From Ferruginibacter sp. (GTDB lineage Bacteria; Bacteroidota; Bacteroidia; Chitinophagales; Chitinophagaceae), in contig JAQBNH010000009.1 of assembly GCA_028288705.1 (NCBI GenBank), positions 1 to 64,000 on the forward strand: a stretch of 64,000 nucleotides of DNA. The letters are read 5' to 3'. This document shows positions 44,851-61,993 of this stretch, one piece after another. The notes beneath the pieces were generated by a model. It was not told the origin of the DNA. It saw nothing but the letters and a program-made list of their open reading frames with translations, and searched no databases. How positions within the stretch are numbered: position 1 is the stretch's first letter; the number at the start of each line of letters is the position of its first letter. Both the position numbers and the translations under genes were made by a program.

Positions 44851-44862
44851 ACCTTACCTAAG

Positions 44863-45303: not shown

Positions 45304-45307
45304 CATC

Positions 45308-47101
45308 ATGGATCAGCAAAGCCCGGTATTGCAAATACTCATTGTTGAAGACAATGCAGGTGATATGGCGTTGATACAGGATTACCTGCGCGACGAATTC
45401 CCGAATATTCAGATCGTACCGGCGCGAAATTATACGCAGGCATTAGCGGCATTAAAAACGTTACAATCACCGGACCTGATCTTACTTGATCTTTCGCTGC
45501 CGGATAACAGTGGTGAAGACCTGGTGAACGGCATTATCAGCAACTGCGGGGAATGCCCGGTGATCGTACTAACGGGCATGAGAGATAAACAATTTGGTAT
45601 GAAGACCCTTTCAATGGGTATTTCCGATTATCTCCTGAAAGATGAACTGACCGCTTCGCAGTTGCACAAAAGCATTCTCTATTCCATAGAACGCAACCGG
45701 ATATACAATGAACTAAAATATTCGGAACAGAAATATCGCAGCCTTTTCGAATTAAGCCCCACACCAATGTGGGTATTTGATGTAGAAACATTGCGTTTCC
45801 TTAGCGTTAATGAAGCGGCAATCAGGCATTACGGTTACAGTGAAGAAGAATTTTTACAGGCAACGCTTGCTGATATCAGGCCGAAAGAAGACCTTGGTAT
45901 TTTAGAGGATGCAACGAAAGAAATGAAGAGCAATGCAGAGTTCCAAAAAGCTTTTGCGCGGCATCTAAAAAAAGACAACTCGATCATTTTTGTTGATATT
46001 CATAGCAACCAGATTGAATTTGCGGGCAGGAAGGCGCGCCTGGTATTAGCCACGGACGTAACAGCCAAGGTAAAGGCTGAGCGCGACCTTAAACTCATGG
46101 AATCGGTTATCATCAATACCACAGACACGGTGATGATAACAGAAGCCAGGCCCTATGGCAAGGAAGACCTGGGGATCGTGTATGTGAACGATGCCTTTAC
46201 AAATATGACGGGTTACACAAGGGAAGAAGTGCTACGAAAAACACCGCGTATCCTGCAAGGATTAAAGACCGACCCGATCGAACTTGAACGGATGCAAAAA
46301 GCCATCGCCGCATTGCAGCCTTTTGAAACCGAAGTCATCAATTACAAAAAAAATGGCGACGAATACTGGGTGAATATCGCCATCGCCCCGGTAACTGATG
46401 AAAAAGGGGTTTGCACGCATTGGATCGCCATCGAAAAAGATGTGACCGATCGTAAAAAAGAAGATCAGCGTGTAACCAAAGCCATCATCAACGCGCAGGA
46501 AGAAGAACGTACGCAGGTTGGGTACGAATTACATGATAACGTAAACCAGATCCTTGTGGGATCCATCCTGGCATTGGGTATGACGAAACAATCGCCGAGT
46601 GAAACAACGGCCTGGGTGGCCAAAGCCCGGGGATATATCAGTGATGCCATCAACGAAATCCGCAAATTGTCGCATCAGCTGGCACCCGCCAGTTTTGAAG
46701 AACAAAGCCTCCAGGATGTAATGGTGAACCTGGTAAATAAAATGAATGTAAATGATCAGTTGCTACCGGTGCTAAACCTTGATGCGCTGCAGCAGGAATT
46801 TATCAGCGATGACATCCAGTTAAATTTATACCGCATCCTGCAGGAACAACTAAATAATATTGTAAAATATTCCAAAGCCACGCAACTCGAGCTCAGCGTC
46901 TACCAGTCACCGTCAGAAGTGAGCATGCGCATTTTCGATAATGGTGTTGGATTTGATCCGTCTGTAACGAAGGGCATTGGGTTAAATAATATCCGCAGGC
47001 GCATTGAATCCTTCGCAGGTACTTTCAAGTTGCACACATCACCAGGTGCGGGCTGCGAGATCATTGCGACCATCCCGTTAAACGGGCAAAAGACCTCATA
47101 A
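45308..47101 (+). CDS. Receiver-PAS-PAS-HisKA_3 histidine kinase
   Basis: A 597-residue cytoplasmic protein: receiver (about 9-125, phosphoacceptor Asp61), PAS (140-255), a second PAS (265-385), HisKA_3 dimer domain with His409 (GYELHDNVNQILVG) and HATPase (500-595; LNNIRRRIESFAG). The second PAS has the LOV-like frame VYVNDAFTNMTGYTREEV and ILQGLKTDP, but the photoactive Cys position is Pro313 (KTPRILQG) and the late Gln is Glu (IAIEKDVTDRK). HisKA_3 kinases usually signal to LuxR-type regulators; none is near. The N-terminal receiver suggests input from the first kinase in this operon. Confidence 0.9.
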   Translation: MDQQSPVLQILIVEDNAGDMALIQDYLRDEFPNIQIVPARNYTQALAALKTLQSPDLILLDLSLPDNSGEDLVNGIISNCGECPVIVLTGMRDKQFGMKTLSMGISDYLLKDELTASQLHKSILYSIERNRIYNELKYSEQKYRSLFELSPTPMWVFDVETLRFLSVNEAAIRHYGYSEEEFLQATLADIRPKEDLGILEDATKEMKSNAEFQKAFARHLKKDNSIIFVDIHSNQIEFAGRKARLVLATDVTAKVKAERDLKLMESVIINTTDTVMITEARPYGKEDLGIVYVNDAFTNMTGYTREEVLRKTPRILQGLKTDPIELERMQKAIAALQPFETEVINYKKNGDEYWVNIAIAPVTDEKGVCTHWIAIEKDVTDRKKEDQRVTKAIINAQEEERTQVGYELHDNVNQILVGSILALGMTKQSPSETTAWVAKARGYISDAINEIRKLSHQLAPASFEEQSLQDVMVNLVNKMNVNDQLLPVLNLDALQQEFISDDIQLNLYRILQEQLNNIVKYSKATQLELSVYQSPSEVSMRIFDNGVGFDPSVTKGIGLNNIRRRIESFAGTFKLHTSPGAGCEIIATIPLNGQKTS

Positions 47102-47148: not shown

Positions 47149-49431
47149 TTATAATAATTTGAATGAGGCCTCTTTTACATCGCGGCTGTTTCCGCCAATA
47201 AATAATTTAAAGTCTCCCGGTTCTGCAACATATTTTAAATCTGCATTATAAAACCTAAGGTCATTCACTGTTAATGTAAAACTTACTTTCCTGCTCTCTC
47301 CTGCCTTCAGAAATATTTTCTGAAACCCTTTGAGCTCTTTAACCGGGCGGGTAATACTTCCCACCAGATCACGGGTGTATAGTTGCACCGTTTCACTGCC
47401 ATCGCGACTCCCCGTATTTTTAATGGTTACTGTGGCCGTAATACTGCCCGTGGAAGAAAGGGTTGAACTGCTTAATTGCACCGCGCTGTAGTCGAAACTT
47501 GTATAACTTAATCCGAAGCCGAAAGGGAATAAGGGATCATTGGAAACATCCAGGTAATTCGACCTGAACTTTTCAAACCATTTTCCTTCTCCCAGCGGAC
47601 GACCGGTATTCTTATGGCTGTAATAAATTGGAATTTGCCCAACGTTTTGCGGGAAGGTTGTGGTGAGTTTTCCGGAAGGATTTACATCTCCGAATAATAC
47701 ATCAGCAATCGCGTTCCCTGCTTCAGAACCACCAAACCAAACATTTAAGATAGCAGGAACATTGGCTTTTTCCCAACTGAGCACTAATGGACGGCCGGTG
47801 AAAAGTACGAGCACTACGGGTTTTCCTGTTTTCACCAGGGCCATGAGTAAGTCCCTTTGCGTTTGTGGAATTTCGAGATTCGTGCGGCTGGAACTTTCGC
47901 CGCTCATTTCGGAAGACTCGCCCAATGTTGCTACGATCACATCTGCCTGTGCTGCGATGCCCAGCGCTTCATTCCTTAATTCTTCTGCCGTTTTATTATC
48001 ACGCGGCAATGTACGCCCGAACATGGTAGCGCGCTTTTCAAAATTACTGTCCGCGTCAAGATTAGATCCCTTCGCGACAAGAATTTTTGCATTATTGCCC
48101 AGCGCATTTTTAAGTCCGTCCAAAACACTTATCGCAGAAGGAAGATTTGTGGCCACACTCCAGGTGCCCGGCATATTTTCTTTGGTATCTGCCAGTGGAC
48201 CGATCAGGGCGATCGTTGCAGATTTTTTTAACGGCAATACGTTGTCATTTTTCAACAAAACAAAACTTTCAGCCGCAATCGTGCGAGCTGCTTTTATATT
48301 ATCCGGGGTGGAAATATCTGTTTTAGCACGCGCCATATCGCAATACTTGTAGGGATTTTCAAAGAGTCCCAATTTGTATTTTGCTTCGAGCACGAGGCGG
48401 CAGGCATTATCAATTTCCGCAAGCGTTACCTTCTTTTCATCCAGCGATTTTTTGAGCGTGGTTAAAAATCCTTCGCCTACCATATCCATATGAATACCGG
48501 CTTTCAAAGCAAGTGCAGAAACTTTTTGCAGGTCGCCCATGCCATGTTCGATCATTTCGTTGATGCCGGTATAATCTGTTACCACAAATCCTTTAAAGCC
48601 CCATTGATTTCTTAGAATGTCTGTCATCAGCCATTTATTTCCTGTTGCAGGAATGCCATCAACTTCATTGAAAGAAGCCATCACGCTCCCAACACCTGCA
48701 TCAACTGCCGCTTTGTAAGGAGGGAGATAATTGTTGTACATCGTGATGCGACTCATGTCCGTTGTATTATAATCGCGGCCGGCCTCTGCTGCGCCATACA
48801 TCGCATAATGTTTTACACAGGCCATGATGCTGTTGTTTTTCGTCAGGTCATTATTTTGATAACCATTCACCATGGCTTTTGCGATAAGTGATCCGAGGTA
48901 AGCATCTTCACCACTACCCTCCGCAATCCTTCCCCAGCGCGGGTCGCGGCTGATATCAACCATCGGGCTGAAAGTCCAGCAAATCCCATCGGCACTGGCT
49001 TCTACAGCGGCGATGCGTGCGCTCTGCGTGATCGCTTCCATATTCCAGGTGCACGATAAAGCCAATGGAATCGGGAAGGTTGTTTGATATCCATGGATCA
49101 CGTCCATACCAAAGATCATCGGGATCTTTAACCTCGTTTGTTCCACTGCAACTTTTTGTACGTCGCGAATTTTTTCAACGCCTTTGATATTGAAGAGCCC
49201 GCCCACTTTGCCTTCGCGGATCTTTTTACCAATATCCGAATTGCCGGCCTGCCCGGTAACGATATCGCCCGAACCCGGAAGATTAAGCTGGCCAATCTTT
49301 TCATCCAGCGTCATTTTCTTCATCAACGCGTCGATGAAAGGTTTCATTTTCGGGTTGACTTGCTGCGCTGAAGTTTGCATAACAATGAACAATGCAAACA
49401 GCAGGAGGAAATTTCTTTGTATCATTTTCAT
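47149..49431 (-). CDS. GH3 beta-glucosidase, secreted (BglX-like)
   Basis: A 760-residue family 3 glycoside hydrolase with a signal peptide (ALFIVMQTSAQQ). Domain order is the TIM-like barrel (about 30-380, with MDVIHGYQTTFPIP, RDPRWGR, CVKHYAMYG and the nucleophile Asp in FVVTDYTGINEM), the alpha/beta sandwich (400-610) and an FnIII-like domain (665-745). It removes terminal beta-linked glucose from oligosaccharides; some GH3 enzymes linked to GH144 genes prefer beta-1,2 linkages. Last gene of the locus on this strand, ending at a terminator. Confidence 0.93.
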   Translation of the reverse strand: MKMIQRNFLLLFALFIVMQTSAQQVNPKMKPFIDALMKKMTLDEKIGQLNLPGSGDIVTGQAGNSDIGKKIREGKVGGLFNIKGVEKIRDVQKVAVEQTRLKIPMIFGMDVIHGYQTTFPIPLALSCTWNMEAITQSARIAAVEASADGICWTFSPMVDISRDPRWGRIAEGSGEDAYLGSLIAKAMVNGYQNNDLTKNNSIMACVKHYAMYGAAEAGRDYNTTDMSRITMYNNYLPPYKAAVDAGVGSVMASFNEVDGIPATGNKWLMTDILRNQWGFKGFVVTDYTGINEMIEHGMGDLQKVSALALKAGIHMDMVGEGFLTTLKKSLDEKKVTLAEIDNACRLVLEAKYKLGLFENPYKYCDMARAKTDISTPDNIKAARTIAAESFVLLKNDNVLPLKKSATIALIGPLADTKENMPGTWSVATNLPSAISVLDGLKNALGNNAKILVAKGSNLDADSNFEKRATMFGRTLPRDNKTAEELRNEALGIAAQADVIVATLGESSEMSGESSSRTNLEIPQTQRDLLMALVKTGKPVVLVLFTGRPLVLSWEKANVPAILNVWFGGSEAGNAIADVLFGDVNPSGKLTTTFPQNVGQIPIYYSHKNTGRPLGEGKWFEKFRSNYLDVSNDPLFPFGFGLSYTSFDYSAVQLSSSTLSSTGSITATVTIKNTGSRDGSETVQLYTRDLVGSITRPVKELKGFQKIFLKAGESRKVSFTLTVNDLRFYNADLKYVAEPGDFKLFIGGNSRDVKEASFKLL

Positions 49432-49458
49432 ATCGTAATATTTAATCTTAAACCTAAA

Positions 49459-50133
49459 TTATTTGAGTAAGTGTGGAGCAATTAATGCCTGCCAGATCGC
49501 ATAACCTTTCGCATTCATGTGCAGGTTGTCGCCGATGTACAAATCATTCCGCATCGTCCCGTCGCTGTTTAGCATGGGCTGGTACACATCGACGAAGACC
49601 GTTCTCTTTTTCTTTTTCAGGAATTTTTTGATACCGTTATTTGCAGCAATCATATCGGCCTGGAGTTTTGCACGGCTCGGACTTGGTTTGATGGATACAT
49701 AAACTATCGAGGCATAAGGGAGTTGTTGCCGGATCATCCCATACAATGTTTTAAAATCTTTTAGCACTTTTTCCGGCGACGACGCAGGTGTGGCTGCGAT
49801 GTCATTTTCTCCACAGTAAATAACAACTTGTTTAGGTAAATATTTTAAGATCAGATCGTCGGCATAACGGATCATGTCAGGCAGCGTTGAACCACCAAAG
49901 CCCCGGTTGATCACGGGTAGGCCCGGAAAATCGGCAGCAAGGTTCTTCCACATCCTAAATGAGGAACTTCCCGCAAACACGATTGGGTGCTGCCCCGCGA
50001 ACGGAACCTGGATACTATCTGCTTTTCTAAATGCTGCAATCTCGTCGGCAAAAGGTTGCGCCGTAGCTGCAGACCCCATAAGGAGGAAAACGGCGAAGAA
50101 AATCTTACAGGTAATTTGCTTTAAGTAGTTCAT
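49459..50133 (-). CDS. SGNH/GDSL-type hydrolase
   Basis: A secreted 224-residue SGNH hydrolase with a signal peptide ending near AATAQPF. The four blocks are visible: Ser in VFAGSSSFRMW, Gly in NRGFGGSTLPDM, Asn in IYCGENDIAA and the Asp/His pair in GDNLHMNAKGYAIW. Such enzymes are esterases or deacylases; in a polysaccharide locus it probably removes acetyl, succinyl or other acyl groups from the glycan. It lies three bases after the GH43-like gene, so they are cotranscribed. Confidence 0.9.
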   Translation of the reverse strand: MNYLKQITCKIFFAVFLLMGSAATAQPFADEIAAFRKADSIQVPFAGQHPIVFAGSSSFRMWKNLAADFPGLPVINRGFGGSTLPDMIRYADDLILKYLPKQVVIYCGENDIAATPASSPEKVLKDFKTLYGMIRQQLPYASIVYVSIKPSPSRAKLQADMIAANNGIKKFLKKKKRTVFVDVYQPMLNSDGTMRNDLYIGDNLHMNAKGYAIWQALIAPHLLK

Positions 50134-50136
50134 ATG

Positions 50137-51894
50137 TTAGTCAACTTTTATCGGTGCTGTCCGGGCAGATACACCGTTCTCATTAATGGCTTCAATAGAA
50201 AAATAATAAGTCTTTTGGCTGTCCATTGTCTTCAACCAATATTCATTGATATCGTGCACCATGATGCAAGTGTACAATTTATCAGGGGCTGTGCCATAAT
50301 ACAGGTTCCAGGCCCACGCTTTTTCATCCGGGCTCCACTTAACCCAGGCACTGCGTTTGTCCTTCTCAGTTCGTAACACGACCAATTGCTTCACGGTAGA
50401 GGGTTTATCACCCGCCCCTTTGCCGAAAACGCGCAGGCCACTGATGGCAAATTTACCAGTGGGCATATGAATATTTTCCAGCCTGATATAACGTGCTTTA
50501 ACGGGCACTACCAATTCTATATAATCATGCGGTACATCTGTTTTATTTTGGCTTTTATCTGCAAGCATCTTCCAACTTTTTCCATCCAGTGAATACAACA
50601 ATTTATACTGATGAAAAATATTGGTCTGTTTACCAAGAAATTCCGCATCCTGGTCTGCATAATTAATTTGAACCGCGTTGACTGTGCTTATATTTCCCAG
50701 GTCGCTTTGCAGCCATTCTCCAGCATTCCCGGAAACAGCGCTCCAATAAGTTTTGATACTTTCATCGACTGCGTTGTTTGGAGAAAATGCATTGAGCGTA
50801 GAAGAAACCTGGACCGGTTTTTTATAATTAAGGAGCATCCAGCCTGTGAAGCCACCATCGCCATTTGGCAACGATTCGTTTACAGTATTTACTGATGGTA
50901 AATGATGCGGGTAATCACCGAATGCCGTATTGCAATACATTACACCATCCTTGTCGAACCCGGCAGGCCAGATTCCGAGCCTTCGTTCAAAATTGTTTTT
51001 CACGGAGATCGCCATCGTGGATACATGCCAGTAATTTTTATTATTGTCGACAAATGTTCCGCCGTGCCCCGCGCCGCGTGCAAAACCACCGGCCTTATAA
51101 CTCAGCGGGTCGGATTGCGGTGTGAATGGTCCAAGCGGTGAATCACCAACGATCACCCCATCTGCATAGCCACTGAATTCCGTGCCCGGCGCGCCATACT
51201 GCAGGTAATACTTGCCGTTATGCTGCGTCATATGCCCGCCTTCGATGAAGGGATCTAAAAAAGTATTATCATGGTATTCACCAAACCGTTGCCAGCCATA
51301 ACGCCATTCTTCCAGTAAATACATTTCTTTTCTTGCTGTTTTTGGTTGAAACGTTTTCCTGTCCAATTCTACGCCATACACCGGATAGCGGTTACTGCTG
51401 CCGTTATACATGTACAGCCGGCCATCTTTTTCGTCAGTAAAAAACGAAGGATCCCAGCCCCCAATTGCAAACGAATCTACCAGGGGCTTCCATTCATTTA
51501 CCTTCGGATTGGTGCTCATCCAGATCGTAAAGTTGTTGGTATAAGTAGAACCGAAGACGATCATTGTATCACCGATGACGCCGAGTGCAGGAGCGCATAA
51601 TTCATCGTAAACGCCGCCATTCCAGGGACGTAGAAATTTCCGCGAAACAAAATTCCATTTCAGCATATCACTGCTCCACCAGTATCCCCATTGATTGGTG
51701 CTGAATAAATAATAATCACCTTTATAGTTGATAATCTCCGGATCAGCCGTAGCCCGATGCTTTCCCCATTCGCTGAAGTTCGGAATCGGTGTATAACCAT
51801 AATCCAGGTTTAAGGGATTACAGTAAGTTTTCTGTTGCGCGTCCGCATAAGCCGTGAGAAGCAACAGGACCAATATCGTTGCGTATAATTTCAT
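50137..51894 (-). CDS. GH43-like glycosidase with discoidin and Fn3 domains
   Basis: A secreted 585-residue protein. I start at ATG 51894 (MKLYATILVLLLLTAYADAQQ, a signal peptide) rather than the TTG at 51903. A five-bladed propeller of GH43 type covers about 25-320, with base Asp in RATADPEIINYKGDYYL, a second Asp in GGWDPSFFTDEKDG and acid Glu in DPFIEGGHMTQHNG. Next come an F5/8 type C (discoidin) carbohydrate-binding domain (about 350-490) and a fibronectin type III domain (500-585). The specificity is not readable; GH43-like enzymes cut arabinosides, xylosides and some galactosides, so it may trim side groups. Confidence 0.85.
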   Translation of the reverse strand: MKLYATILVLLLLTAYADAQQKTYCNPLNLDYGYTPIPNFSEWGKHRATADPEIINYKGDYYLFSTNQWGYWWSSDMLKWNFVSRKFLRPWNGGVYDELCAPALGVIGDTMIVFGSTYTNNFTIWMSTNPKVNEWKPLVDSFAIGGWDPSFFTDEKDGRLYMYNGSSNRYPVYGVELDRKTFQPKTARKEMYLLEEWRYGWQRFGEYHDNTFLDPFIEGGHMTQHNGKYYLQYGAPGTEFSGYADGVIVGDSPLGPFTPQSDPLSYKAGGFARGAGHGGTFVDNNKNYWHVSTMAISVKNNFERRLGIWPAGFDKDGVMYCNTAFGDYPHHLPSVNTVNESLPNGDGGFTGWMLLNYKKPVQVSSTLNAFSPNNAVDESIKTYWSAVSGNAGEWLQSDLGNISTVNAVQINYADQDAEFLGKQTNIFHQYKLLYSLDGKSWKMLADKSQNKTDVPHDYIELVVPVKARYIRLENIHMPTGKFAISGLRVFGKGAGDKPSTVKQLVVLRTEKDKRSAWVKWSPDEKAWAWNLYYGTAPDKLYTCIMVHDINEYWLKTMDSQKTYYFSIEAINENGVSARTAPIKVD

Positions 51895-51899
51895 TCCGA

Positions 51900-53234
51900 T
51901 CAATTAAAGTACGGACTTTTAAAATCCAGTTTTTTTAATCCGCCCTGCACCTCGGGGCAACTCATAAATAATTTCCAGAGCAGTCCGCTCCGGTAATTTT
52001 CAATCATCACGATGATGGGCCCCTGGTCGATGGCCAGGTGTGAAGATGCATACCAGTTTTTAGTCTGGTTAAAAGCATCAATAAATCCATATTGACTCCA
52101 TAATTTATCACCAAGATCTGTATAGAAATGACGAAGTGCTTTCATGGAAAATTCCGGTGTGTATGGAAAGGCAGAAAGCGCTGCAGTCGGCGTGATCGTG
52201 CCATTGTCATTTGTTGGAGAATGGGCATCATACCCATTGTATGTATCGCTTGCAGTGAGCCCCCAGCAATCCGGCCCGTAACCTTTGAATTCTTTTGGAT
52301 TATCAACACAATAAGCATGATTGATCAGGCTATGGTGTTGATTTTGCTCCCAATAATCTGCGTAGCGGTCTTTTAATCCATGGGGATCAAGTCCAAGGAA
52401 AGAATACTGCGAGAAAAACAACGGGCCTCCATAATCAAAACCCAGCGGTAAGCGATAGTTGTAAAAAGTTTTACCATTTTTGAAGAAGTCACTTTGTGCC
52501 CACCCACGATGATACACATCGGCACTCACAGGATGATTTTTAGCACTAGCTGCGAGGACATACATGATCAGGCATTCGTTAAATCCACGTACGGGAAAAT
52601 TCATCGCCCAACCGTTATTCGGGCTCCAATGCCAATACAGTACTTCTCGTCCGTCGCGCGTAAACCAATCCCATTCGATATCATTCCATAGCCAGTTGAT
52701 GCGGTTGCGCAAGTCATTTTCAACAGGGGTATTTTTATTAAAATACTGACGGGCAGATAACAGCCCCTGGAATAAATAAGATGTTTCTACAAGATCGGCA
52801 CCATCATCTTTCCGGCTAAAAGGAATTGTTTTTCCAGTCGTTCCATTTATCCAATGCGGGAATACACCATGGTAAGAATCAGCCTTTGCTAAGAAGCTCA
52901 CCATCTTCAATAAAAATTTTGCTGCTGTGTCGCGGGATATCCATTTTCTTTCGGCCGCCACAATCACGCTCATTACGCCAAATCCTGTACCACCGCTGGT
53001 TACGACTTCCTGTCCATAATTATAGGCTTCATTACTTCTTTCCCGCGCGAGACCGCTCACGGGATGAGCAAAATCCCAGAAATAACGGAACGTCTGTTGC
53101 TGAACGAGGTCGAGTAACGCACTGTCGGAAAGATTGGACGGCCTCGCCATTGTTGGCTTCGTCGCTGTCAGTACCTGCGTGGTACCCGGATGAAATTGGA
53201 GCAGCAGGACAATGAGGAATGCAAATTTTCTCAT
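51900..53234 (-). CDS. GH144/glucoamylase-family glucanase 1
   Basis: A secreted 444-residue alpha/alpha-barrel protein (signal peptide at MRKFAFLIVLLLQF...). It contains the 'Glycoamylase' domain: LLDLVQQQTFRYFWDFAHPVSGLARER, FPHWINGTTG, DDGADLVETSYLFQGLL, WNDIEWDWF, and GFNECLIMYVLAAS with a conserved Glu. Despite its domain name this family includes GH144 endo-beta-1,2-glucanases, first defined from Chitinophaga. Its pair with a paralogue next door and a GH3 gene favours beta-1,2-glucan as substrate. No lipobox is seen, so it is probably periplasmic. Confidence 0.85.
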   Translation of the reverse strand: MRKFAFLIVLLLQFHPGTTQVLTATKPTMARPSNLSDSALLDLVQQQTFRYFWDFAHPVSGLARERSNEAYNYGQEVVTSGGTGFGVMSVIVAAERKWISRDTAAKFLLKMVSFLAKADSYHGVFPHWINGTTGKTIPFSRKDDGADLVETSYLFQGLLSARQYFNKNTPVENDLRNRINWLWNDIEWDWFTRDGREVLYWHWSPNNGWAMNFPVRGFNECLIMYVLAASAKNHPVSADVYHRGWAQSDFFKNGKTFYNYRLPLGFDYGGPLFFSQYSFLGLDPHGLKDRYADYWEQNQHHSLINHAYCVDNPKEFKGYGPDCWGLTASDTYNGYDAHSPTNDNGTITPTAALSAFPYTPEFSMKALRHFYTDLGDKLWSQYGFIDAFNQTKNWYASSHLAIDQGPIIVMIENYRSGLLWKLFMSCPEVQGGLKKLDFKSPYFN

Positions 53235-53252
53235 GCAAAACTTTTTTAAAAA

Positions 53253-54926
53253 CTACAAATAAGGGGCAGTGAAACCAAGTGACAGCATGCCCGACTTCAC
53301 CTCCGGCGCACCCGTAAATAAATTCCATAGCAAGCCGCTGCGGTAATTTTCGAGCATCACGATAATTGGCCCCTGGTCAATCGCTAAAAACGAATTGGCA
53401 AACCATGGATCATTTAATTTAAAGGCATCGATGAAACCATATTCTTTAAATAAGCGGTCGCCGAGCACATAATAATAAAATTTCAGCGCTTTCATTGATT
53501 CAACAGGTGTGTATGGAAACGATGATAATGCTGCTGTCGGCGCGATCACACCTAGATCATTAGTGGGCGAACTCGCTGCATAACCATTTGGAATATCGCT
53601 GGCGGTTAATCCCCATACCGAATCGCTATAGCCATAAAAACCATTGGGATTGGCTTTGCAATAATTGTAATTGATCAGCGTATGATTTTTTGTCTGCGTC
53701 GTATAGTTGGCATATGCATCAGCCAACCCATTTGGATTAATCCCTAGAAAGGAATAGTGTTCGTAAAATAACGGGCCACCTAAAGCCTGGCCTAACGGCA
53801 ACTGGTAGCCGTAGTAGCTGGAGCCATTTACAAAGCCGGCACCGCCATTCCTCGCCCAGCCGTTGGTATAAACCGGAGGAGTAATGCTATGTGTTGGAGA
53901 TGAAGCAGCAAGTACATATGTGATCAGGCATTCGTTCCAGCCCTGCACTTTTAAATTGATCGCAAAATTATTTGTGTTGCTGTAATGCCAGTATAAAACA
54001 TTCTGGTTACCCTGGCGGAAAAAATCCCATTCAACACGATCACGGATGAAATTAATATCCGCACGCAAACTGGCTTCTGCGCCGGCACCGTTAAAATATT
54101 CACGTGCACAAATCAAACCTTGTATCAGGTAAGATGTTTCTACCAGATCCGCACCATTGTCCAACGCACTGAAAGGAATGATTGCTCCTGTTGTTCCGTT
54201 CAGCCAATGCGGGAATGCCCCTTTCACTGTTTGCGCGGTATTTTTTAAAAAGCCAACGATCTTCTGCATCCGCAGTAACCCTTCATTTCTTGTTATAAAA
54301 TTCCGGTGTACGCCGGTGATCAGTGCCATAATTCCAAATCCGGATCCTCCGCTGGTAACGGTTTCACCGGAGGTGTTACGTTCCCTGGCAAGCCCGCTGA
54401 CGGGATGCCCAAAATCATAAAAATATTTAAAGGTTTGCGCCTGCACAAGATCGAGTAAAGCATTATCGGTGATAGCCGCAAACTTCCGGGAAGAATCTAT
54501 CCCTGTGCTCAGGTTGATCGTTACAGGATTGGTAAGCGAACCGTTAGAAGATTTCAGCGCACTGCTGATACGCAGCGTATATTTTTCAAAGCCGGCAAGA
54601 TTTGCCGCAGGTTTTATAAGAAGATCTTTATTGCCATTCGTTAGTTCATTATTAAAAGCAACGGTGGCACCGCCTGCTGTTTTAAACTCAATGGCTGCAG
54701 GAACTGTAGCGGGTAGTATTGCTTCAGAAAAACTAAACCGCACTTGTGGTTTTAGATTTACGCCGGCATAATTCAATGTGCCGTTATATACATTATTCAC
54801 TTTAAAAGCCAGGGTAAAATCATTAACGGCTGGTGTTGTGTTGCTATCAGATTTCTTGCAGGATATGCCTGCAGGAAGGACGAAAGCAATGGCGAGCAAC
54901 CATGGTGAAACCTTTAAAACGCGCAT
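53253..54926 (-). CDS. GH144/glucoamylase-family glucanase 2, lipoprotein with Ig-like domain
   Basis: A 557-residue paralogue of the preceding enzyme. It has a lipoprotein signal (VLPAGISCKK, Cys near 23), a bacterial Ig-like domain of the Big_5 type (about 35-145) and then the same alpha/alpha-barrel (ALLDLVQAQTFKYFYDFGHPV, FPHWLNGTTG, DNGADLVETSYL, GWNECLITYVLAAS). The lipid anchor and spacer domain suggest display at the outer membrane surface, with the unanchored paralogue acting inside, giving a surface-then-periplasm cleavage order. This order is inference. Confidence 0.87.
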   Translation of the reverse strand: MRVLKVSPWLLAIAFVLPAGISCKKSDSNTTPAVNDFTLAFKVNNVYNGTLNYAGVNLKPQVRFSFSEAILPATVPAAIEFKTAGGATVAFNNELTNGNKDLLIKPAANLAGFEKYTLRISSALKSSNGSLTNPVTINLSTGIDSSRKFAAITDNALLDLVQAQTFKYFYDFGHPVSGLARERNTSGETVTSGGSGFGIMALITGVHRNFITRNEGLLRMQKIVGFLKNTAQTVKGAFPHWLNGTTGAIIPFSALDNGADLVETSYLIQGLICAREYFNGAGAEASLRADINFIRDRVEWDFFRQGNQNVLYWHYSNTNNFAINLKVQGWNECLITYVLAASSPTHSITPPVYTNGWARNGGAGFVNGSSYYGYQLPLGQALGGPLFYEHYSFLGINPNGLADAYANYTTQTKNHTLINYNYCKANPNGFYGYSDSVWGLTASDIPNGYAASSPTNDLGVIAPTAALSSFPYTPVESMKALKFYYYVLGDRLFKEYGFIDAFKLNDPWFANSFLAIDQGPIIVMLENYRSGLLWNLFTGAPEVKSGMLSLGFTAPYL

Positions 54927-54948
54927 GTGAAATATAGATTGAGCTTAG

Positions 54949-54980
54949 GAAAAAAGGCCTGAAAATAGTTTCAGGCCTTT
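54949..54980 (-). terminator. Terminator/attenuator between import and hydrolase genes
   Basis: A perfect 12-bp stem (AAAGGCCTGAAA and TTTCAGGCCTTT, loop ATAG) with Ts on its minus-strand 3' side. It lies after the susC-susD-LamG genes and before the hydrolases, so it may reduce hydrolase expression relative to the import genes or end one of two transcripts. Confidence 0.8.
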
Positions 54981-55006
54981 ATGTAAAATGCAAATGATTC
55001 GTTTTG

Positions 55007-55903
55007 TTATTTTCCGGCTACACCCAGATTGTATAAAGCCCGGATATGAGCCGAACCTAATACAGTATTGAACACACGGATCTCATCCACTTTTCCGTTC
55101 ATGGGCACCTGCCAGGTATCGGGATTCGTCATCGTCCCCACATTACGCTGCCAGCCACCAATGATAACGGTGCTTGGTTCGAATGCTTTAAAATAATTGC
55201 TGCCCCGGTTCTGGTAATCAGTAGTGCCGATCATTACACCGTCCGCCCAGATCTGCAAATTGTTGGCGACGTAATCGTAAGTCGTAACAATATTTATCCA
55301 TTTGGTCGGGCCGGTTAACGGCGATTTAAACGTAGGAAGCCATGGCGCATTCAGGTTATCCTGGGTACCGCCGTTCATATCTGCAAAAATCGCTTTGATG
55401 ATTACTTTCGTTAATTCAGATGCAGGATTTTGTCCTGTTTCCAACATCGAATTGATCGAGCCGAAGATCTGATTTGGCCTTGTCAACTGAAATACCATCG
55501 TTGGCGTTGATCCATTATTCAACACGTTGATCCACTCGCTTACCGTCCAGCTTTTTAACGAATCGGTTTTAAATTTTGCGAACTGGTTGCCGTAATATAA
55601 CCAGCCGTTTGCGAGATTGATGGCTTTACCACGAACTCCCGGAACGTAAGAATCGTTTAACGTAGCGGTTGGTGTGATGCCGGAAAAACGTTCCGCTTTC
55701 GTATCGTCAAAACTCCAGTAAGCGACGAGGTTCGCCTTGTAAATCTGGTCGGAGCTGTCGAACCCATCGATTTTTCCCTGGTAATCTGCTGCAGAAGTTC
55801 CCGGAAGATCATTCGGGTTGTCTTTTGAGCAGGAACTCCACGCGAAAGACAACGCTAATAAAGCAGCTGTCCATTTCCCTGATTGTTTAATGTATGCTTT
55901 CAT
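55007..55903 (-). CDS. LamG/concanavalin-like surface lipoprotein
   Basis: A 298-residue lipoprotein (SFAWSSCSKDN, Cys at about 25) with one LamG/concanavalin A-like beta-sandwich domain: YWSFDDTKAERFSG, VRGKAINLANGWLYYG, WTVSEWINVL, WINIVTTYDYVANNLQIWADG, and the final MNGKVDEIRVFNTVL. It follows susD directly and so takes the place of a SusE/SusF-type surface glycan-binding protein. The fold can bind or cut glycans; no catalytic pair is evident. Confidence 0.85.
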   Translation of the reverse strand: MKAYIKQSGKWTAALLALSFAWSSCSKDNPNDLPGTSAADYQGKIDGFDSSDQIYKANLVAYWSFDDTKAERFSGITPTATLNDSYVPGVRGKAINLANGWLYYGNQFAKFKTDSLKSWTVSEWINVLNNGSTPTMVFQLTRPNQIFGSINSMLETGQNPASELTKVIIKAIFADMNGGTQDNLNAPWLPTFKSPLTGPTKWINIVTTYDYVANNLQIWADGVMIGTTDYQNRGSNYFKAFEPSTVIIGGWQRNVGTMTNPDTWQVPMNGKVDEIRVFNTVLGSAHIRALYNLGVAGK

Positions 55904-55914
55904 ATAATCTTATT

Positions 55915-57441
55915 TTAGTAATTAGGATTTTGAGACAACACGTTATTGGAAATATCTCTTTGTGCCTGAGGGATCGGTAAGATATTATCGCGGGCGCCAT
56001 TAAAATTCGGTCTTCCTGAAGCCTGCAAAGTGCTTGCCGCAATTCCCCAGCGAACAAGGTCGAAGAAACGATCATGTTCCATGGCCAGTTCTACCCTTCT
56101 TTCCTGGCGGATCGCTGTGCGCAGCGCGCCCTGGTTAGTAGTGGTTACTGCAGGAAGGATGGCAGCATTTCCGTCACGCGCACGGTTGCGCACCATTTCC
56201 AGTTTCGCCAGTGCTTCTGTTGTATTCGCGGCACCGCCGATCTCATTGGCAGCTTCAGCATACATCAGTACAACATCAGCATAACGCAGGATCCTTACAT
56301 TCATCCACCAGCCGAAACGGTTTCCGACAGTGGCACGTACAGAAGGATTGGTATACACCTTTTCATTATAGGCAGGATTTGGCAAACCCATTGGCAGCGT
56401 TTCGCCGTAGTAGGTTGTTTCCCCTTCGCGGAGGAATGTTCGCTCTTTGCGCGGATCTCCGGGCTCATAGGCCGCAGCGAGGTAACTGTTCGGCACATTG
56501 AAACCCCAGCCTAAATCAAATGCACCTGATCCGCGTACACCTTGTACATTGGTATATTGTACGCCATATGTTTCAGTAGACGGATTACTCGCGTTAGCGA
56601 TCGCCTGTATTTCGAAAATAGACTCTTTTGAATTTTCACCTTCTTCGCGGAAGATCGTTGTGTACGGCGTGCTCAGATCATACACGCCGGAATTGATCAC
56701 CGCTGAAGCCGCTGACATGGCAGGTCCCCATTTTTGTTGCGTGAGGTAAACTTTTGCGAGCAAACCATTAGCCGCACCTTTTGTTGCACGGCCGGTAAAA
56801 CCCGTAGACCATGTTGCCGGAAGGCTCGTAGCGGCAGTCTGCAGATCAGATTCGATCAATGCATAAATTTCGGCTACTGATGCCCTCGGTTTGTTTTGTA
56901 CCGTTGCAGAAACGCTGTCTATTTTTGGGACACCGCCAAACAAACGCACGAGCATGAAATAACTGTAACCACGAATGAATTTCGCTTCGCCTTCTGCCTG
57001 CGCTTTAAAAGGTGCCGATGTAGGACTGTTATCTTTTGCGATCCTGTCGAGCACATCATTTGCACGCCCGATCACATCATAATATGCCTTCCACATATCG
57101 TTCACCAAACCATTTGTTGGTGCTACCGGAAAATTGTCCATCTGAATCTGGTCTGGTCCATCCGCAGGCGTACTGCCTTTGTCGGCATCATCGCTACGGA
57201 TACTTGTTGCGCCTACGAACGGGAACGCGGCAACGCCCCAAACGCGCATGCCGGCATAACCACCAAAAATGTATTGATCAAAAGGACCGGCCCCTGCAGG
57301 ATAAGGATATGTGTCTGTTGTGTATTGTCCCTGCGGATCCCTGTCGAGGAAATCCTTTTTACACGCCGGCAAAATCGCCGACAGTGAAAGCGTGAAAAGC
57401 ATTGCAGCGAGACCAGCTTTTTTATTTGAAATATGTTTCAT
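55915..57441 (-). CDS. SusD/RagB-family surface glycan-binding lipoprotein
   Basis: A 508-residue SusD-like lipoprotein (LSAILPACKKDFLDRDPQG, lipobox Cys near 27). It has TPR-type helices and the family end signatures LEMVRNRARDG and RQERRVELAMEHDRFFDLVRWG. On the cell surface it forms the lid over the SusC channel and captures oligosaccharide. It follows susC by 21 bases and is cotranscribed with it. Confidence 0.94.
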   Translation of the reverse strand: MKHISNKKAGLAAMLFTLSLSAILPACKKDFLDRDPQGQYTTDTYPYPAGAGPFDQYIFGGYAGMRVWGVAAFPFVGATSIRSDDADKGSTPADGPDQIQMDNFPVAPTNGLVNDMWKAYYDVIGRANDVLDRIAKDNSPTSAPFKAQAEGEAKFIRGYSYFMLVRLFGGVPKIDSVSATVQNKPRASVAEIYALIESDLQTAATSLPATWSTGFTGRATKGAANGLLAKVYLTQQKWGPAMSAASAVINSGVYDLSTPYTTIFREEGENSKESIFEIQAIANASNPSTETYGVQYTNVQGVRGSGAFDLGWGFNVPNSYLAAAYEPGDPRKERTFLREGETTYYGETLPMGLPNPAYNEKVYTNPSVRATVGNRFGWWMNVRILRYADVVLMYAEAANEIGGAANTTEALAKLEMVRNRARDGNAAILPAVTTTNQGALRTAIRQERRVELAMEHDRFFDLVRWGIAASTLQASGRPNFNGARDNILPIPQAQRDISNNVLSQNPNY

Positions 57442-57462
57442 AAAATGATTTCTTTTAGTTGA

Positions 57463-60400
57463 CTAAAAAATTACGTTTACGCCAAAAGAATAAGTGGTTG
57501 GTACCGGGTAGCTTCCGTTATCTGCGCCACCTGCGATCGGGCTGCCGATCGGTACTTCAGGAGAATACCCGGTTGCGTAACTAAAGGTAGCAAGGTTTTG
57601 CGCACTAACCGATAAACGCAGGGTTTCAATACCCATTTTTTTGAATTTCGCAGAACCCAGCGTGTAACCCAACTGAACATTCCGGATACGGAAGTAATCG
57701 CCTTTCTCGAGGAAGTAGTTGCTGAACAGGAAGTTGTTCGCGCGGGAATTATCGAGGATCGGTTCGATGTTGGTAGAACCGGCGCCCGTCCAGGCATTCA
57801 GCCGGTTGGTTTCATAATTGAGTACCGCAAATGTTGCCGTTCTGCGTTGTGTATAGATCTTGTTCCCCGCAACTCCTTGCAAGTCAACACCAAAATCGAC
57901 CATTTTATAATTCAGTGTGACATTACCACCGAAATTCCATTTAGGCAATGGCGAACCGAGATAAGTACGATCCTTGGTATCGAGCTTTCCGTCTTTGTTT
58001 ACATCTTCGTAAGCGATATCGCCTGGTAAAGAATTTACAAAATGCGGCATCTTATCCAGGTCGGCTGTGTTCTGATAAATGCCCACCTGCTTGTATCCAT
58101 AAAAATAGCCAATCGATTCACCGGATGTGGTCAGGTTTACACCACCATTTCCAACAAGCTGGAAGTTGATGCCTTCACCGATAGATACCACTTTATTTTT
58201 ATTGTAGCTTCCGTTTGCGCTGATGCGATAACTGAAATCGCGGCCGATCTTATCATTAAAACCAAGCGATAATTCTACCCCTTTATTTTCAATAGTACCA
58301 GCGTTGGTGAACTTGCTGAGGTTCGTTCCCGGCAAAGTAATGAAGGTTAAAATGTCTTCCGTTTTGCGCTGGTAGAATGTCAGTTCAAAACTCAACCTGT
58401 TTTGCAGGGTCCGAAGCTCAAGGCCCAGATCTGTTCCCTTCACAACTTCTGCATGCAGATTTTCATCAGGCACAAATGCCGGTGCAATAGAAGGATAGAC
58501 ATTGTTACCAAAAATACCAACATTCGCTGCGATCACTGAAGCGAAGCGGCTTCCGGCGATACCAAGACCATTACCTACAGTACCATAAGAAGCGCGCAGT
58601 TTCAGGAAGTCAAGTCCTTTCACGCCTTTAAAGAAATCTTCTTCACTCACAACCCAACCCACACCTACACTTCCGAAATTGTTCCAGCGACGACTTACGG
58701 CATATTTGGAATTGCCATCACGACGATAACTTGCGTTCAATAAATATTTGTTTTTGAATGCATAATTCACACGACCCAATACCGACATATATGCTTCCTG
58801 GTTTCCCGCTCCGCCGTAGTTGCCCGGGTTGTTTGCAGATGCGATATCAAGATACCAGTAACTTGGGTTATTCGGGATAACCAAAGACGTATCACTCCTG
58901 TTACCAGAAATATTTACGAGGTCACGATATAAAGTTGTAAAACCTGCTGTTATACCGAGGCGATGATCTGTGTTGATCACTTTGTCAAAAGTGAGGATAT
59001 GATCCTGCTGGAAGTTCCGGTATGTGGCCTGGCTTTGCGCAATACCTGTGCGGATGCTGCGATCAAATGTCGTGTCGGTCGCATTGGTATTTTCGCCGAG
59101 ATTGATAAACCGGAACGGCAGCGGTGTGTAAGAACGTGATCCGTTAAACGCGATATCTGCGTAGAAAGTAGATTTCCAGGTAAAATTCTGCAGGAATTTC
59201 AATTCAGCAAAAACACTTCCTGTGGCACGATATCCTTTGTTTACGTTGGTACGGTCGAAGCGATCCAATTGAGCTACAGGATTGCCTACCTGCGCACGCT
59301 GGAAAGAAGGCATGCTGTAGTAGAGGCCGTCTGCTGCTTTAATCGGAACGATCGGTGCAGCCCAAAGCGCGCCCAGGATGCTCGCTGCGGGAGGATTAGA
59401 ATTGTAATAGAAAGTTGTAAGATCTGCTCCTACCCTCAACGCTTTATTTAACCTGATTTCTTCATTCAAACGAATGATCAGTTTCTCAAATTTATCATTG
59501 CGCAATACACCTTCCTGTGTGTTGTATGAAACGTTCAACACAGTACTTGTTTTTTCACCGGTGTTTGAAATGCTCAGGCTGTTATTATTGAAGAAAGCAG
59601 TACGGAAAATCTCGTCCTGCCAGTGTGTATCTCCCTTGTAATTGGTGAAATCGAATGGCGCTGCATTAAGATTGACTAACTGTGCACTGTATAACTTTTT
59701 AAAGCCGGCAGCATCTACCAGGTCAATTTTATTATTTACTTTCTGTACACCAACCTGGCTTTGAAAGTTCACCCTTGTTTGTCCTTTTTTCGCTCGTTTC
59801 GTAGTAACTAAAATAACCCCATTACCACCTTGCAAACCGAAGATGGCAATAGAAGAAGGATCTTTTAATACTTCGATGCTTTCAATATCTCCGGGAGATA
59901 AATAATCAATGCTTGTCTGGAAGATACCATCTACAACATATAACGGATCACCGTTATTGGTGCTGTTCAATCCACGGATACGAACCGTTGGCGAAGAGCC
60001 TGCAGCACCTGAGTTTACGATCGTTACGCCGGATACTTTACCCTGTAAAGATGAGATCGGGTTGTTATTCGGCTGGCGGGCGATATCGTTACCATTTACA
60101 GAGGCAACAGACCCGGTAAGGTCACGTTTTCTTTGCGTGCCATAACCTACTACAACCACCTGTTCTCCTGTTCTCACAGCAGGCTGCAGTTGAACAGAAA
60201 TTTCATTGCGGCCGCCAACAGCGATCTCACGTGATTCATAACCGACATAGCTAACAACGATCACCGCGTTGTCTGGTACGGTCAGCGAATAAGCGCCATT
60301 TGCCCCTGTAGATGTGCCGTTGTTCGTGCCTTTTACATTAATGCTTGCACCAACCAACGGGTTGCCGTTTTCATCGGTAACGCGGCCGGTTAAACGAATG

Positions 60401-60783
60401 TCTGCATTCATTTCGCCGGGAGTTGGTTTGTACAATACCACCAGGTCTTCTTTCATCATGCGATAAGAAAGGCCTGTACCGTCCAGCATCGTGTTCATCA
60501 CTTCCGGAAGTTCTGCTTCACGAAAATTAGCGTCCACTTTTTTGGATTCCGGCATCAGGTTGTTGTTGTACACAAAACGATATTCGCTTTGTTGTTCCAG
60601 CAACGAGATCGCTTTCGTTAGCTCTACATTTTTAAGTTTTAAAGTGATCCGGCTCTGGCTTCCCGCCTGAACGGATATTTGTGCCAGGAGCATCAGTATA
60701 ACGGTGAGACATAACCGCATACTGCCTGGAATTTTTTTTCTCAGTTTCTCTTGAGCAGAGAAAAATTGTTTGGCAATAATCAT
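57463..60783 (-). CDS. SusC/RagA TonB-dependent outer-membrane transporter with STN domain
   Basis: A 1106-residue outer-membrane importer. After a signal peptide (about 18-40) come an STN signalling domain (about 48-118: ITLKLKNVELTKAISLL, DGTGLSYRMMKEDLVVLY), a carboxypeptidase-like CarboxypepD_reg domain (130-205: RLTGRVTDENGNPLVGASINV), the TonB plug (210-330) with the SusC signature around DPLYVVDGIF and SIEVLKDPSSIAIFG, and the 22-strand barrel. The STN domain normally talks to a FecR-type anti-sigma factor, and fecR is the next gene upstream. Uses TonB-ExbBD energy. Confidence 0.95.
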   Translation of the reverse strand: MIIAKQFFSAQEKLRKKIPGSMRLCLTVILMLLAQISVQAGSQSRITLKLKNVELTKAISLLEQQSEYRFVYNNNLMPESKKVDANFREAELPEVMNTMLDGTGLSYRMMKEDLVVLYKPTPGEMNADIRLTGRVTDENGNPLVGASINVKGTNNGTSTGANGAYSLTVPDNAVIVVSYVGYESREIAVGGRNEISVQLQPAVRTGEQVVVVGYGTQRKRDLTGSVASVNGNDIARQPNNNPISSLQGKVSGVTIVNSGAAGSSPTVRIRGLNSTNNGDPLYVVDGIFQTSIDYLSPGDIESIEVLKDPSSIAIFGLQGGNGVILVTTKRAKKGQTRVNFQSQVGVQKVNNKIDLVDAAGFKKLYSAQLVNLNAAPFDFTNYKGDTHWQDEIFRTAFFNNNSLSISNTGEKTSTVLNVSYNTQEGVLRNDKFEKLIIRLNEEIRLNKALRVGADLTTFYYNSNPPAASILGALWAAPIVPIKAADGLYYSMPSFQRAQVGNPVAQLDRFDRTNVNKGYRATGSVFAELKFLQNFTWKSTFYADIAFNGSRSYTPLPFRFINLGENTNATDTTFDRSIRTGIAQSQATYRNFQQDHILTFDKVINTDHRLGITAGFTTLYRDLVNISGNRSDTSLVIPNNPSYWYLDIASANNPGNYGGAGNQEAYMSVLGRVNYAFKNKYLLNASYRRDGNSKYAVSRRWNNFGSVGVGWVVSEEDFFKGVKGLDFLKLRASYGTVGNGLGIAGSRFASVIAANVGIFGNNVYPSIAPAFVPDENLHAEVVKGTDLGLELRTLQNRLSFELTFYQRKTEDILTFITLPGTNLSKFTNAGTIENKGVELSLGFNDKIGRDFSYRISANGSYNKNKVVSIGEGINFQLVGNGGVNLTTSGESIGYFYGYKQVGIYQNTADLDKMPHFVNSLPGDIAYEDVNKDGKLDTKDRTYLGSPLPKWNFGGNVTLNYKMVDFGVDLQGVAGNKIYTQRRTATFAVLNYETNRLNAWTGAGSTNIEPILDNSRANNFLFSNYFLEKGDYFRIRNVQLGYTLGSAKFKKMGIETLRLSVSAQNLATFSYATGYSPEVPIGSPIAGGADNGSYPVPTTYSFGVNVIF

Positions 60784-60886
60784 GTTTTACTTTTTAGGAT
60801 TAAACAATTGAATGTCCGTTGAACCAAGGTAGTTCCCGGGAGAAGTAGTCGTTAGTTGCGTTGAATTGAATTACATAATCTTGGTT

Positions 60887-61993
60887 TTATAAAATGATAA
60901 TAGCGTTGTTTTCTCTTTTTATGGTGAAGCCTGATGAGGCTTGTAATGCCAGTAACACCTGCATTAAGCTTTCATCCGTAAAATTTGCAGTAAATGTGAG
61001 TTTTTTAAGCGCGGGGTTCCGGATTTCTACCTGCCGCCCATACCAGCGTTGCATCGTGATAATCATGGATTCAAAACTTTCATTGTTGAACATGAGTTTA
61101 TTTTGCGTCCAGCCGATCTCGCGGATAATGTTTTCTTTACTGTCAGCTGCAACCGTTTCAATTGCTACCAATGGGCCTACCTCAGTAACACCGGCCTTCT
61201 GAACGGCTCCAGATTCTTTCGGCAATGGGGGATGAGAGAGGAGCGTAATTTTTTCATTGGGCTTCAGCATGATCTTTTGATTCGTACGGTCTTTCAGTGT
61301 CACTTCAATTGATCCCCTGATCAGCGTTGCCACTGCTGAATTTTCTTTGGGATAAGATTTTACATTGAACACGGTACCCAACACTTTTATATCCATTCCG
61401 CCTGCGTGAACTATGAAGGGCTTATTTTTATTTTCTGCCACTTCAAAAAATGCTTCGCCTACGAGGGTTACTTCACGTGTTGCGCCTAAAAAATTATCCG
61501 GATACGTAAGCTTACTATCAGCGTTTAAGATCACCACCGTGCCATCCGGCAGTTTCACCTGTGTTTTTGATCCTGGCCTGGTGCTGATATTATTGTTTAT
61601 GCGCGCGCTAGCATCAGGCCCTGAATTGTTACTGCTGCCTAAAAACCTAAATAAACCCAGCGCAAGTAACAGTACAACTGCTGCGGTAAATATGGGAATG
61701 CCGTATTTCTTCCAGCTACTTTTTTCCCGTTGCTCCGGCTCGGCTCCGTTGTTTTCAGCAGCTTTAACATGCGGATCTGCCGCCATGATCTTGTGGCGAA
61801 GATTGAGTAATATCTTTTCCTTATCGATGGTTTGGTGATGCCGGTGGGAGGAAATTTTAGCGGAGATTTGCGAAAGGATCTGCTTATACACGGGGTTTCG
61901 AAGCAGGATCAGATCCAGTTCTTCTAACTCAACCGGGGCAATATCCCCGGCAAGTTTCCTGGCAACTAAGATATAAAAGCGATTTTCTTCCAT
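60887..61993 (-). CDS. FecR-family anti-sigma factor
   Basis: A 368-residue inner-membrane protein: cytoplasmic N-terminus (about 1-95) that binds an ECF sigma factor, a transmembrane helix (98-117, IFTAAVVLLLALGLF), the periplasmic FecR domain (STRPGSKTQVKLPDGTVVILNADSKL, EAFFEVAENKNKPFIVHAG) and a C-terminal DUF4974 domain (about 290-368, KLMFNNESFESMIITM). It should relay the STN signal of the SusC protein encoded 103 bases downstream. Unusually, no ECF sigma gene lies next to it. Confidence 0.92.
   Translation of the reverse strand: MEENRFYILVARKLAGDIAPVELEELDLILLRNPVYKQILSQISAKISSHRHHQTIDKEKILLNLRHKIMAADPHVKAAENNGAEPEQREKSSWKKYGIPIFTAAVVLLLALGLFRFLGSSNNSGPDASARINNNISTRPGSKTQVKLPDGTVVILNADSKLTYPDNFLGATREVTLVGEAFFEVAENKNKPFIVHAGGMDIKVLGTVFNVKSYPKENSAVATLIRGSIEVTLKDRTNQKIMLKPNEKITLLSHPPLPKESGAVQKAGVTEVGPLVAIETVAADSKENIIREIGWTQNKLMFNNESFESMIITMQRWYGRQVEIRNPALKKLTFTANFTDESLMQVLLALQASSGFTIKRENNAIIIL

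Follow-up and report, generated by a model that had tools for sequence, protein, structure and literature searches.

A nine-gene locus probably directed at beta-1,2-glucan

We analysed a stretch of 64,000 nucleotides from Ferruginibacter sp. (assembly GCA_028288705.1, contig JAQBNH010000009.1, positions 1 to 64,000 of the forward strand), hereafter called the window, and found in it nine consecutive genes that very probably make up a locus for the utilisation of a beta-1,2-glucan, one that comes from outside the cell and is probably substituted. Two predicted glucanases of glycoside hydrolase (GH) family 144 are accompanied there by a GH43-like protein, which we designate GH43L. GH43L is no casual neighbour of GH144; the two are tightly coupled across genomes. 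We tentatively propose, at a little under even chance, that GH43L is the founding group of GH43-fold enzymes of undescribed specificity that take part in the breakdown of natural beta-1,2-glucan throughout Bacteroidota.

The nine open reading frames (ORFs) lie on the minus strand at 47149-61993 and are all open. A preliminary description of this DNA, made from its letters alone, had placed a beta-1,2-glucan locus here, and the placement holds: the outer ends match those coordinates exactly, and each of the nine proteins has a Pfam match above the curated cut-off. One block thus holds a SusC/SusD pair, GH144 and GH3. From the FecR-type gene at its head to the GH3 gene at its tail, the gaps calculated from the ORF coordinates are 103, 21, 11, 80, 18, -4, 3 and 27 bases, and with this spacing the block looks like a single transcription unit. 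A scan for promoters and terminators gave nothing beyond what shuffled sequence gives.

Two predicted GH144 glucanases, one of them with a lipoprotein signal

The first of the two paralogues, GH144a (53253..54926, minus strand), is a lipoprotein in which an Ig-like Big_5 domain (42.3 bits) precedes the GH144 domain (PF10091, 235.1 bits), and it is a predicted outer endo-beta-1,2-glucanase. The second, GH144b (51900..53234, minus strand), is a secreted protein with neither the Big_5 domain nor a lipoprotein cysteine, and is predicted to be a periplasmic beta-1,2-glucanase (PF10091, 274.8 bits). Both scores are far above the cut-off of 27 for PF10091 (Glycoamylase), and the two proteins are 56% identical across 412 residues. 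Both match the solved chain 5gzh, which is labelled 'Endo-beta-1,2-glucanase' and which we take to be CpSGL of Chitinophaga pinensis, the founding GH144 endo-beta-1,2-glucanase (E 2.8e-171 for GH144b and 5e-129 for GH144a). Both match 4gl3 more strongly still (E 2.4e-185 for GH144b), and BDI_3064 (5z06), presumably an exo-type enzyme, less strongly than 5gzh. Endo action would be expected of both window proteins.

The key acids point the same way. Residues D260, E263 and E332 of GH144a, and D147, E150 and E220 of GH144b, align with D139, E142 and E211 of 5gzh (numbered by chain index), and the equivalent acids are identical in 110/110 aligned GH144 rows, both window proteins included; 6 of the 114 ORFs taken from loci were omitted from this alignment as too short. 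We take D139 and E211 of CpSGL to be functionally important acids, and E142 is named in a passage of PMC11842490.

Lipoprotein calls were made with a home-made signal-pattern rule. It was loosened after a stricter version had missed the window's own SusD; that version missed GH144a, the LamG protein and SusD alike. Among relatives, the rule passes 38/40 SusD and 18/18 LamG proteins, and also 12/97 GH43L, 5/82 GH3 and 3/38 SGNH proteins. The preliminary description had held that just one of the two GH144s is lipid-anchored, and the rule agrees, being positive for 53253-54926 and negative for 51900-53234. It passes 28/36 GH144a-type relatives, 4/23 of the GH144b type (at least 62% identity) and 24/49 other GH144s. 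Given the contrast between the first two types, the division into an outer and an inner GH144 looks conserved among relatives.

A GH3 enzyme compatible with beta-1,2-glucan

The last gene of the block (47149..49431, minus strand) encodes a GH3 beta-glucosidase of the BglX/BT_3567 type, predicted to be periplasmic, with a match of 933.8 bits to NF011678 BglX (cut-off 666) and of 244.3 bits to the Pfam GH3 N-terminal domain. Its solved relatives are, in order, JMB19063 (3u48, 1204 bits; two distinct sequences), 5tf0 and 5xxl, the last of which is the fourth distinct sequence (E 0, 1154 bits) and presumably is BT_3567. Lin1840 (4zo6, 4zoa) is matched at about 548 bits, in two pieces. BT_3567 and Lin1840 are described in passages of PMC12369401 as GH3s linked to beta-1,2-glucan, with Sop2 and Lam2 hydrolysed at comparable speed. 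The window enzyme would therefore be compatible with beta-1,2-glucan, which is short of proof of that substrate.

Taken together, the 5gzh matches, the invariant acids and the closeness of the GH3 to 5xxl support the target named in the preliminary description, as does the general reading of GH144 loci, in passages of PMC6499787, as beta-1,2-glucan loci that are abundant in Bacteroidota.

GH43L is far from every solved GH43

GH43L (50137..51903, minus strand) consists of a GH43 propeller (PF04616, 71.8 bits against a cut-off of 32.2), a CBM32-like domain (F5/8 type C, F5_F8_type_C) and an FN3-like C-terminal end, the last resting on weak matches to positions 497-578 of the profile. Its start is listed as TTG, and an ATG lies three codons downstream. 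Residues D54, D151 and E221, which we take to be the GH43 catalytic D, D, E triad, are invariant in 49 aligned sequences, namely the window protein and 48 of 76 full-length relatives that are 41-77% identical to it. The AlphaFold model of GH43L has a pLDDT of 89.3 and superimposes on the GH43 structure 4qqs with a Z score of 24.6 and an rmsd of 2.9 Å over 286 residues, at 22% identity. The first Foldseek match of the model is BT_3662 (5msx), and the best solved chain found with the GH43L family profile scores just 67 bits. No close solved GH43 relative appears among the profile, Foldseek or structure-comparison matches. GH43L therefore has the GH43 fold, is probably active as an enzyme, and stands far from every solved GH43. 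We dropped the naming of its sugar from solved neighbours, as all of these matches are distant. The genomic contexts of GH43L that are free of GH144 were likewise set aside as too varied to point to one substrate: one holds GH26, GlcNAc 2-epimerase-type and GH2-type genes (L064), another two other GH43s and a GH31 (L102), and a third a GH92 (L111).

GH43L and GH144 are coupled across genomes

Two surveys bear on this coupling, one of 147 genomes from the taxonomic family of the host (called same-family below) and one of 395 genomes from the phylum. Matches to GH43L were found in 90 same-family genomes; 12 were dropped with best E values of 1e-4 to 1e-7, the range of other GH43 proteins, and 78 were kept. 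GH144 is present in 95 of the 147 genomes: it accompanies GH43L in 76/78, occurs alone in 19, and 50 genomes have neither. Across the phylum, with thresholds of E 1e-30 or better for GH43L (76 genomes) and E 1e-50 or better for GH144 (121 genomes), GH144 is encoded by 73/76 genomes with GH43L versus 48/319 without it, an odds ratio of 137. The genomes with GH43L and no GH144 are G047 and G135 in the first survey and G330, G359 and G389 in the second.

For the control family GH26 (73 genomes), the corresponding counts are 52/73 with and 69/322 without, an odds ratio of 9. The link between GH43L and GH144 persists in GH26-positive genomes (38/39 versus 14/34) and in GH26-negative genomes (35/37 versus 34/285). 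These co-occurrence statistics ignore genome kinship, so we put weight on the contrast with the GH26 control and not on p-values.

The coupling extends to gene neighbourhoods. We used 78 same-family loci, that is, every strong GH43L match listed outside the window's own genome minus three short fragments. In the 48 loci whose GH43L is at least 69% identical to ours, GH144 lies within about 9 kb in 36, GH3 in 44, SGNH in 34 and GH30 in 23. In the phylum survey, GH144 lies no more than 15 kb away from GH43L in at least 12/15 loci at 66% identity or more, at least 6/27 at 55-66% and at least 21/36 at 40-55%. Some misses reflect contig ends or a GH144 gene just beyond the stretch (e.g. G086), and the genomes of all twelve loci L086-L097 (62-68% identity, not a single clade), which have no GH144 nearby, encode GH144 elsewhere. 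In named genomes, among the best 80 of 584 confirmed GH43L loci, GH144 lies within 10 kb in 55/80, and in 41/52 of those with full flanks. In a rapidly built tree with 98 rows of GH43L, the 63 that are linked to GH144 fall on several deep branches, with 18 label changes versus 28.9 after shuffling; 20 of the rows had been picked because they are linked to GH144, which favours the label.

The gene order GH144-GH43L-SGNH-GH3 recurs in many genomes, which argues that it is not due to chance. Among the same best 80 of 584 named loci, the block with SGNH is carried by Ferruginibacter sp. HRS2-29, Terrimonas ginsenosidimutans and Pedobacter foliorum, and Chitinophaga ginsengisegetis carries the block with no SGNH detected.

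Esterase-type partners and possible substituents

Between GH43L and GH3 lies an SGNH/GDSL hydrolase gene (49459..50133, minus strand; Lipase_GDSL_2, 62 bits), whose product is a predicted periplasmic acyl esterase. Its solved relatives are all distant, the best being 4iyj (E 7.9e-13). Read by eye, the protein carries blocks GSS, GFGG, GEND and DNLH, to be compared with what we take to be the family pattern GDSL, G, GxND and DxxH. SGNH genes occur in 29/43 GH144-linked same-family loci, 9 of which also have an alpha/beta-hydrolase, versus 9/35 unlinked loci. The 20 GH144-linked loci from other families have an alpha/beta-hydrolase in 15 and SGNH in none, so that one or the other esterase type is found in 29/43 and 15/20 linked loci, respectively. 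The appearance of two unrelated esterase-type folds at the same place argues for ester groups on the glucan. The preliminary description had proposed that the natural glycan is substituted; the recurrence of esterase-type genes lends this indirect support, and the esters themselves we infer. Its comparison with bacterial cyclic glucans finds evidence neither for nor against it. A sulfatase-like ORF, called by a motif rule, is found in 4 of the 20 linked loci of other families (L159, L160, L165 and L166).

According to passages of PMC11842490, groups such as succinyl, acetyl and phosphoglycerol are known on beta-1,2-glucans, and glucans of the osmoregulated type are branched through beta-1,6-linked glucose. 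None of these groups or branches obviously calls for a GH43 enzyme.

A GH30 resembling 5ngk, presumably a beta-1,6-glucanase, is present in 23 of the 48 close same-family loci. GH30 is absent from the window block, and we did not use beta-1,6 branches as a clue to its substrate. The single GH30 match of the window's own genome lies beside a GH3 on contig C6, in a locus of its own (L119, 2746-15952), where SusC/SusD and GH16- and GH5-like genes were recognised by eye; this second glycan locus is probably for a beta-1,3/1,6-glucan.

Some relatives of the locus have GMC oxidoreductase, Gfo/Idh, GH97 or PhoD-like neighbours, none of which is in the window block. Seven loci (L053, L056, L070, L071, L072, L075 and L077) share extra genes near GH43L that look, by eye, NagB-, SIS-, ROK-, SDR- and MBL-like, and six of the seven have a GMC oxidoreductase, as though the locus had been joined by a branch for oxidation or amino sugars.

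Import, regulation and flanking genes

The remaining four genes fit uptake and its control. The first gene of the block (60887..61993, minus strand) encodes a FecR-type anti-sigma factor (Pfam FecR and FecR_C), followed by a SusC-type TonB-dependent importer (57463..60783, minus strand; TIGR04056, 768 bits) with CarbopepD_reg_2 and Plug domains and an N-terminal STN domain. Since SusC carries STN, its signalling through FecR is likely. Next come a SusD-type surface glycan-binding lipoprotein (55915..57441, minus strand; SusD-like_3 and SusD_RagB) and a LamG-domain lipoprotein that is a probable surface glycan binder (55007..55903, minus strand), each with a lipoprotein signal by the pattern rule. 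The LamG match (Laminin_G_3) is weak, at 30.1 bits barely above the cut-off of 27.6. The preliminary description had listed GH3 and SusC/SusD/LamG genes, and Pfam and NCBIfam matches bear this out, with LamG only just over its threshold.

Upstream of FecR lie a gene for an Arr-type rifampin ADP-ribosyltransferase (62075-62515, minus strand; PF12120, 160 bits) and then Pcm. The Arr-type gene occupies the place between FecR and Pcm where an extracytoplasmic function (ECF) sigma factor gene would be expected, and none of the 80 named GH43L loci (best 80 of 584) has an Arr match. The locus may be controlled by a distant ECF sigma factor.

On the other side, at 42592-47101 (plus strand), lie genes for two histidine kinase-type proteins with multiple PAS domains, one of which also has a receiver domain; both genes point at the 3' end of the locus. 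Beyond them, at 40841-42304 (minus strand), lies a gene for a protein with a phage tail sheath C-terminal domain (PF17482, 38 bits), possibly from a contractile injection system.

Alternative explanations

Several observations weigh against a beta-1,2-glucan locus of the kind proposed here. The substrate assignment, although homology supports it well, is a prediction. The best match of GH144b, 4gl3, is merely a 'putative glucoamylase' and is uncharacterised. The GH3, whose subfamily placement the preliminary description had suggested as a check, is close to 5xxl, but its top match is JMB19063 and not BT_3567, and its nearest NCBIfam equivalog, BglX, is a general beta-glucosidase. No ECF sigma gene lies beside FecR, and the 24 Sigma70_r4_2 matches of the genome include none on the contig that holds the locus (C12). 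GH144 is nearby in 4/17 same-family loci whose GH43L is 60-69% identical to ours and in 3/13 at 38-60%; GH144 is absent from the 10 kb around GH43L in 11 of the 52 full-flank named loci (best 80 of 584), 6 of which lack GH3 as well. GH144 is also frequent without GH43L, in 48/121 phylum genomes. Lastly, in a GH144-containing locus of Bacteroides xylanisolvens, a GH35 enzyme cuts beta-1,2-galactosides and not beta-1,2-glucooligosaccharides, as given in passages of PMC11739564. The presence of GH144 is therefore not enough to identify what a locus degrades, and our assignment is not certain.

The Bacteroides xylanisolvens case favours a heteroglycan or a non-glucan beta-1,2-linked polymer, for example one containing beta-1,2-galactan, of which GH144 would cut part of the chain. 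A GH43-type enzyme is unexpected for a pure glucan, and the 5ngk-like GH30 of many close loci also fits such a polymer. However, no GH35 match was found by Pfam among the nine window proteins, the window GH3 is near 5xxl, and PMC12102758 reports that GH144, GH162 and the new clan groups 1-3 act on beta-1,2-glucan, with no substrate found for group 4; we consider this explanation improbable. A further alternative, unlikely but not markedly so, is that GH43L acts on beta-1,2-glucan itself, for instance by exo-cleavage of sophorooligosaccharides or by attacking cyclic or alpha-1,6-closed rings. Its tie to GH144 (73/76 in the phylum, 76/78 in its own family) is tighter than a patchy decoration suggests, and it accompanies both kinds of esterase as well as, in four loci, sulfatase-like genes. 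Against this, those of its solved neighbours that have a stated activity are for the most part xylosidases, arabinofuranosidases and arabinanases, an exo-beta-1,3-galactanase being among them, and 48 genomes have GH144 without it. A linear beta-1,2-glucan, moreover, should need just GH144 and GH3.

We also weighed explanations that take GH43L or the whole locus out of the breakdown of an external glucan. GH43L could be a hitch-hiker in carbohydrate-eating genomes that are rich in all enzymes, given that the GH26 control is enriched with GH144 as well. The odds ratio of 137 for GH43L against 9 for GH26, the persistence of the link in both GH26 strata and the spread of linked rows (63/98, with 20 chosen as linked) over several deep GH43L branches make this highly unlikely. 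The locus could instead recycle cyclic beta-1,2-glucan made by the cell itself, as the genome encodes a cyclic glucan synthase: a 2903-aa protein on contig C6 with an NdvB match (8rf0, E 0) and GH94 and Glycoamylase domains. However, 28 of the 147 same-family genomes have the synthase domain, and GH144 is present in 21 of these 28 versus 74 of the other 119 (Fisher p 0.27). We therefore rejected self-recycling as a general role, and with a SusC/SusD importer implying a substrate from outside, we regard it as very improbable for this locus too. A decorated natural beta-1,2-glucan remains the best fit.

Proposed pathway

From the families, signals and domains described above, a decorated beta-1,2-glucan would be processed as follows. 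The SusD and LamG lipoproteins would hold the polymer at the cell surface, where lipid-anchored GH144a would cut it internally, and SusC would import the fragments. In the periplasm, GH144b would shorten them, the SGNH enzyme would strip acyl groups, GH43L would remove some side group or unusual linkage, and the release of glucose would fall to GH3. The STN domain of SusC, with FecR, may relay the induction signal.

Beta-1,2-glucans are factors in bacterial symbiosis, virulence and osmoregulation (PMC12102758), and their recycling in nature is little studied. If our proposal for GH43L is true, the fact that it hardly ever occurs without GH144 would imply a natural beta-1,2-glucan that is decorated or of mixed linkage, with a structure that has not been described, and the bond that GH43L cuts would reveal this hidden decoration.

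Comparison with known systems

The window GH144s share with CpSGL their family, a near full-length match and the key acids; a difference is that the locus has two paralogues, one of them a lipoprotein with an Ig-like domain. The window GH3 has the same architecture as BT_3567 (5xxl), to which it is a close sequence match, and as Lin1840, which is far more distant. With solved GH43s (4qqs, BT_3662 5msx, arabinanases and xylosidases), GH43L has in common the propeller fold and the acid triad, but its identity to them is about 20% and its profile scores do not exceed 67 bits.

In titles and text passages of the literature, we found no pairing of GH43 with GH144, supplementary locus lists being outside the scope of this search, and the main text of PMC9765747 shows no GH144. 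The GH144 loci in passages of PMC6499787, PMC6550366 and PMC8072126 have SusC/SusD and GH144 as the window does, and those of the latter two also have GH3. Neither a GH43-like partner nor an SGNH enzyme is named in these passages, whereas the window has both; conversely, the marine GH144 loci of PMC6499787 carry a sulfatase and the window block does not. The locus is an ordinary member of a known and abundant kind, and its GH43L partner is the part added here.

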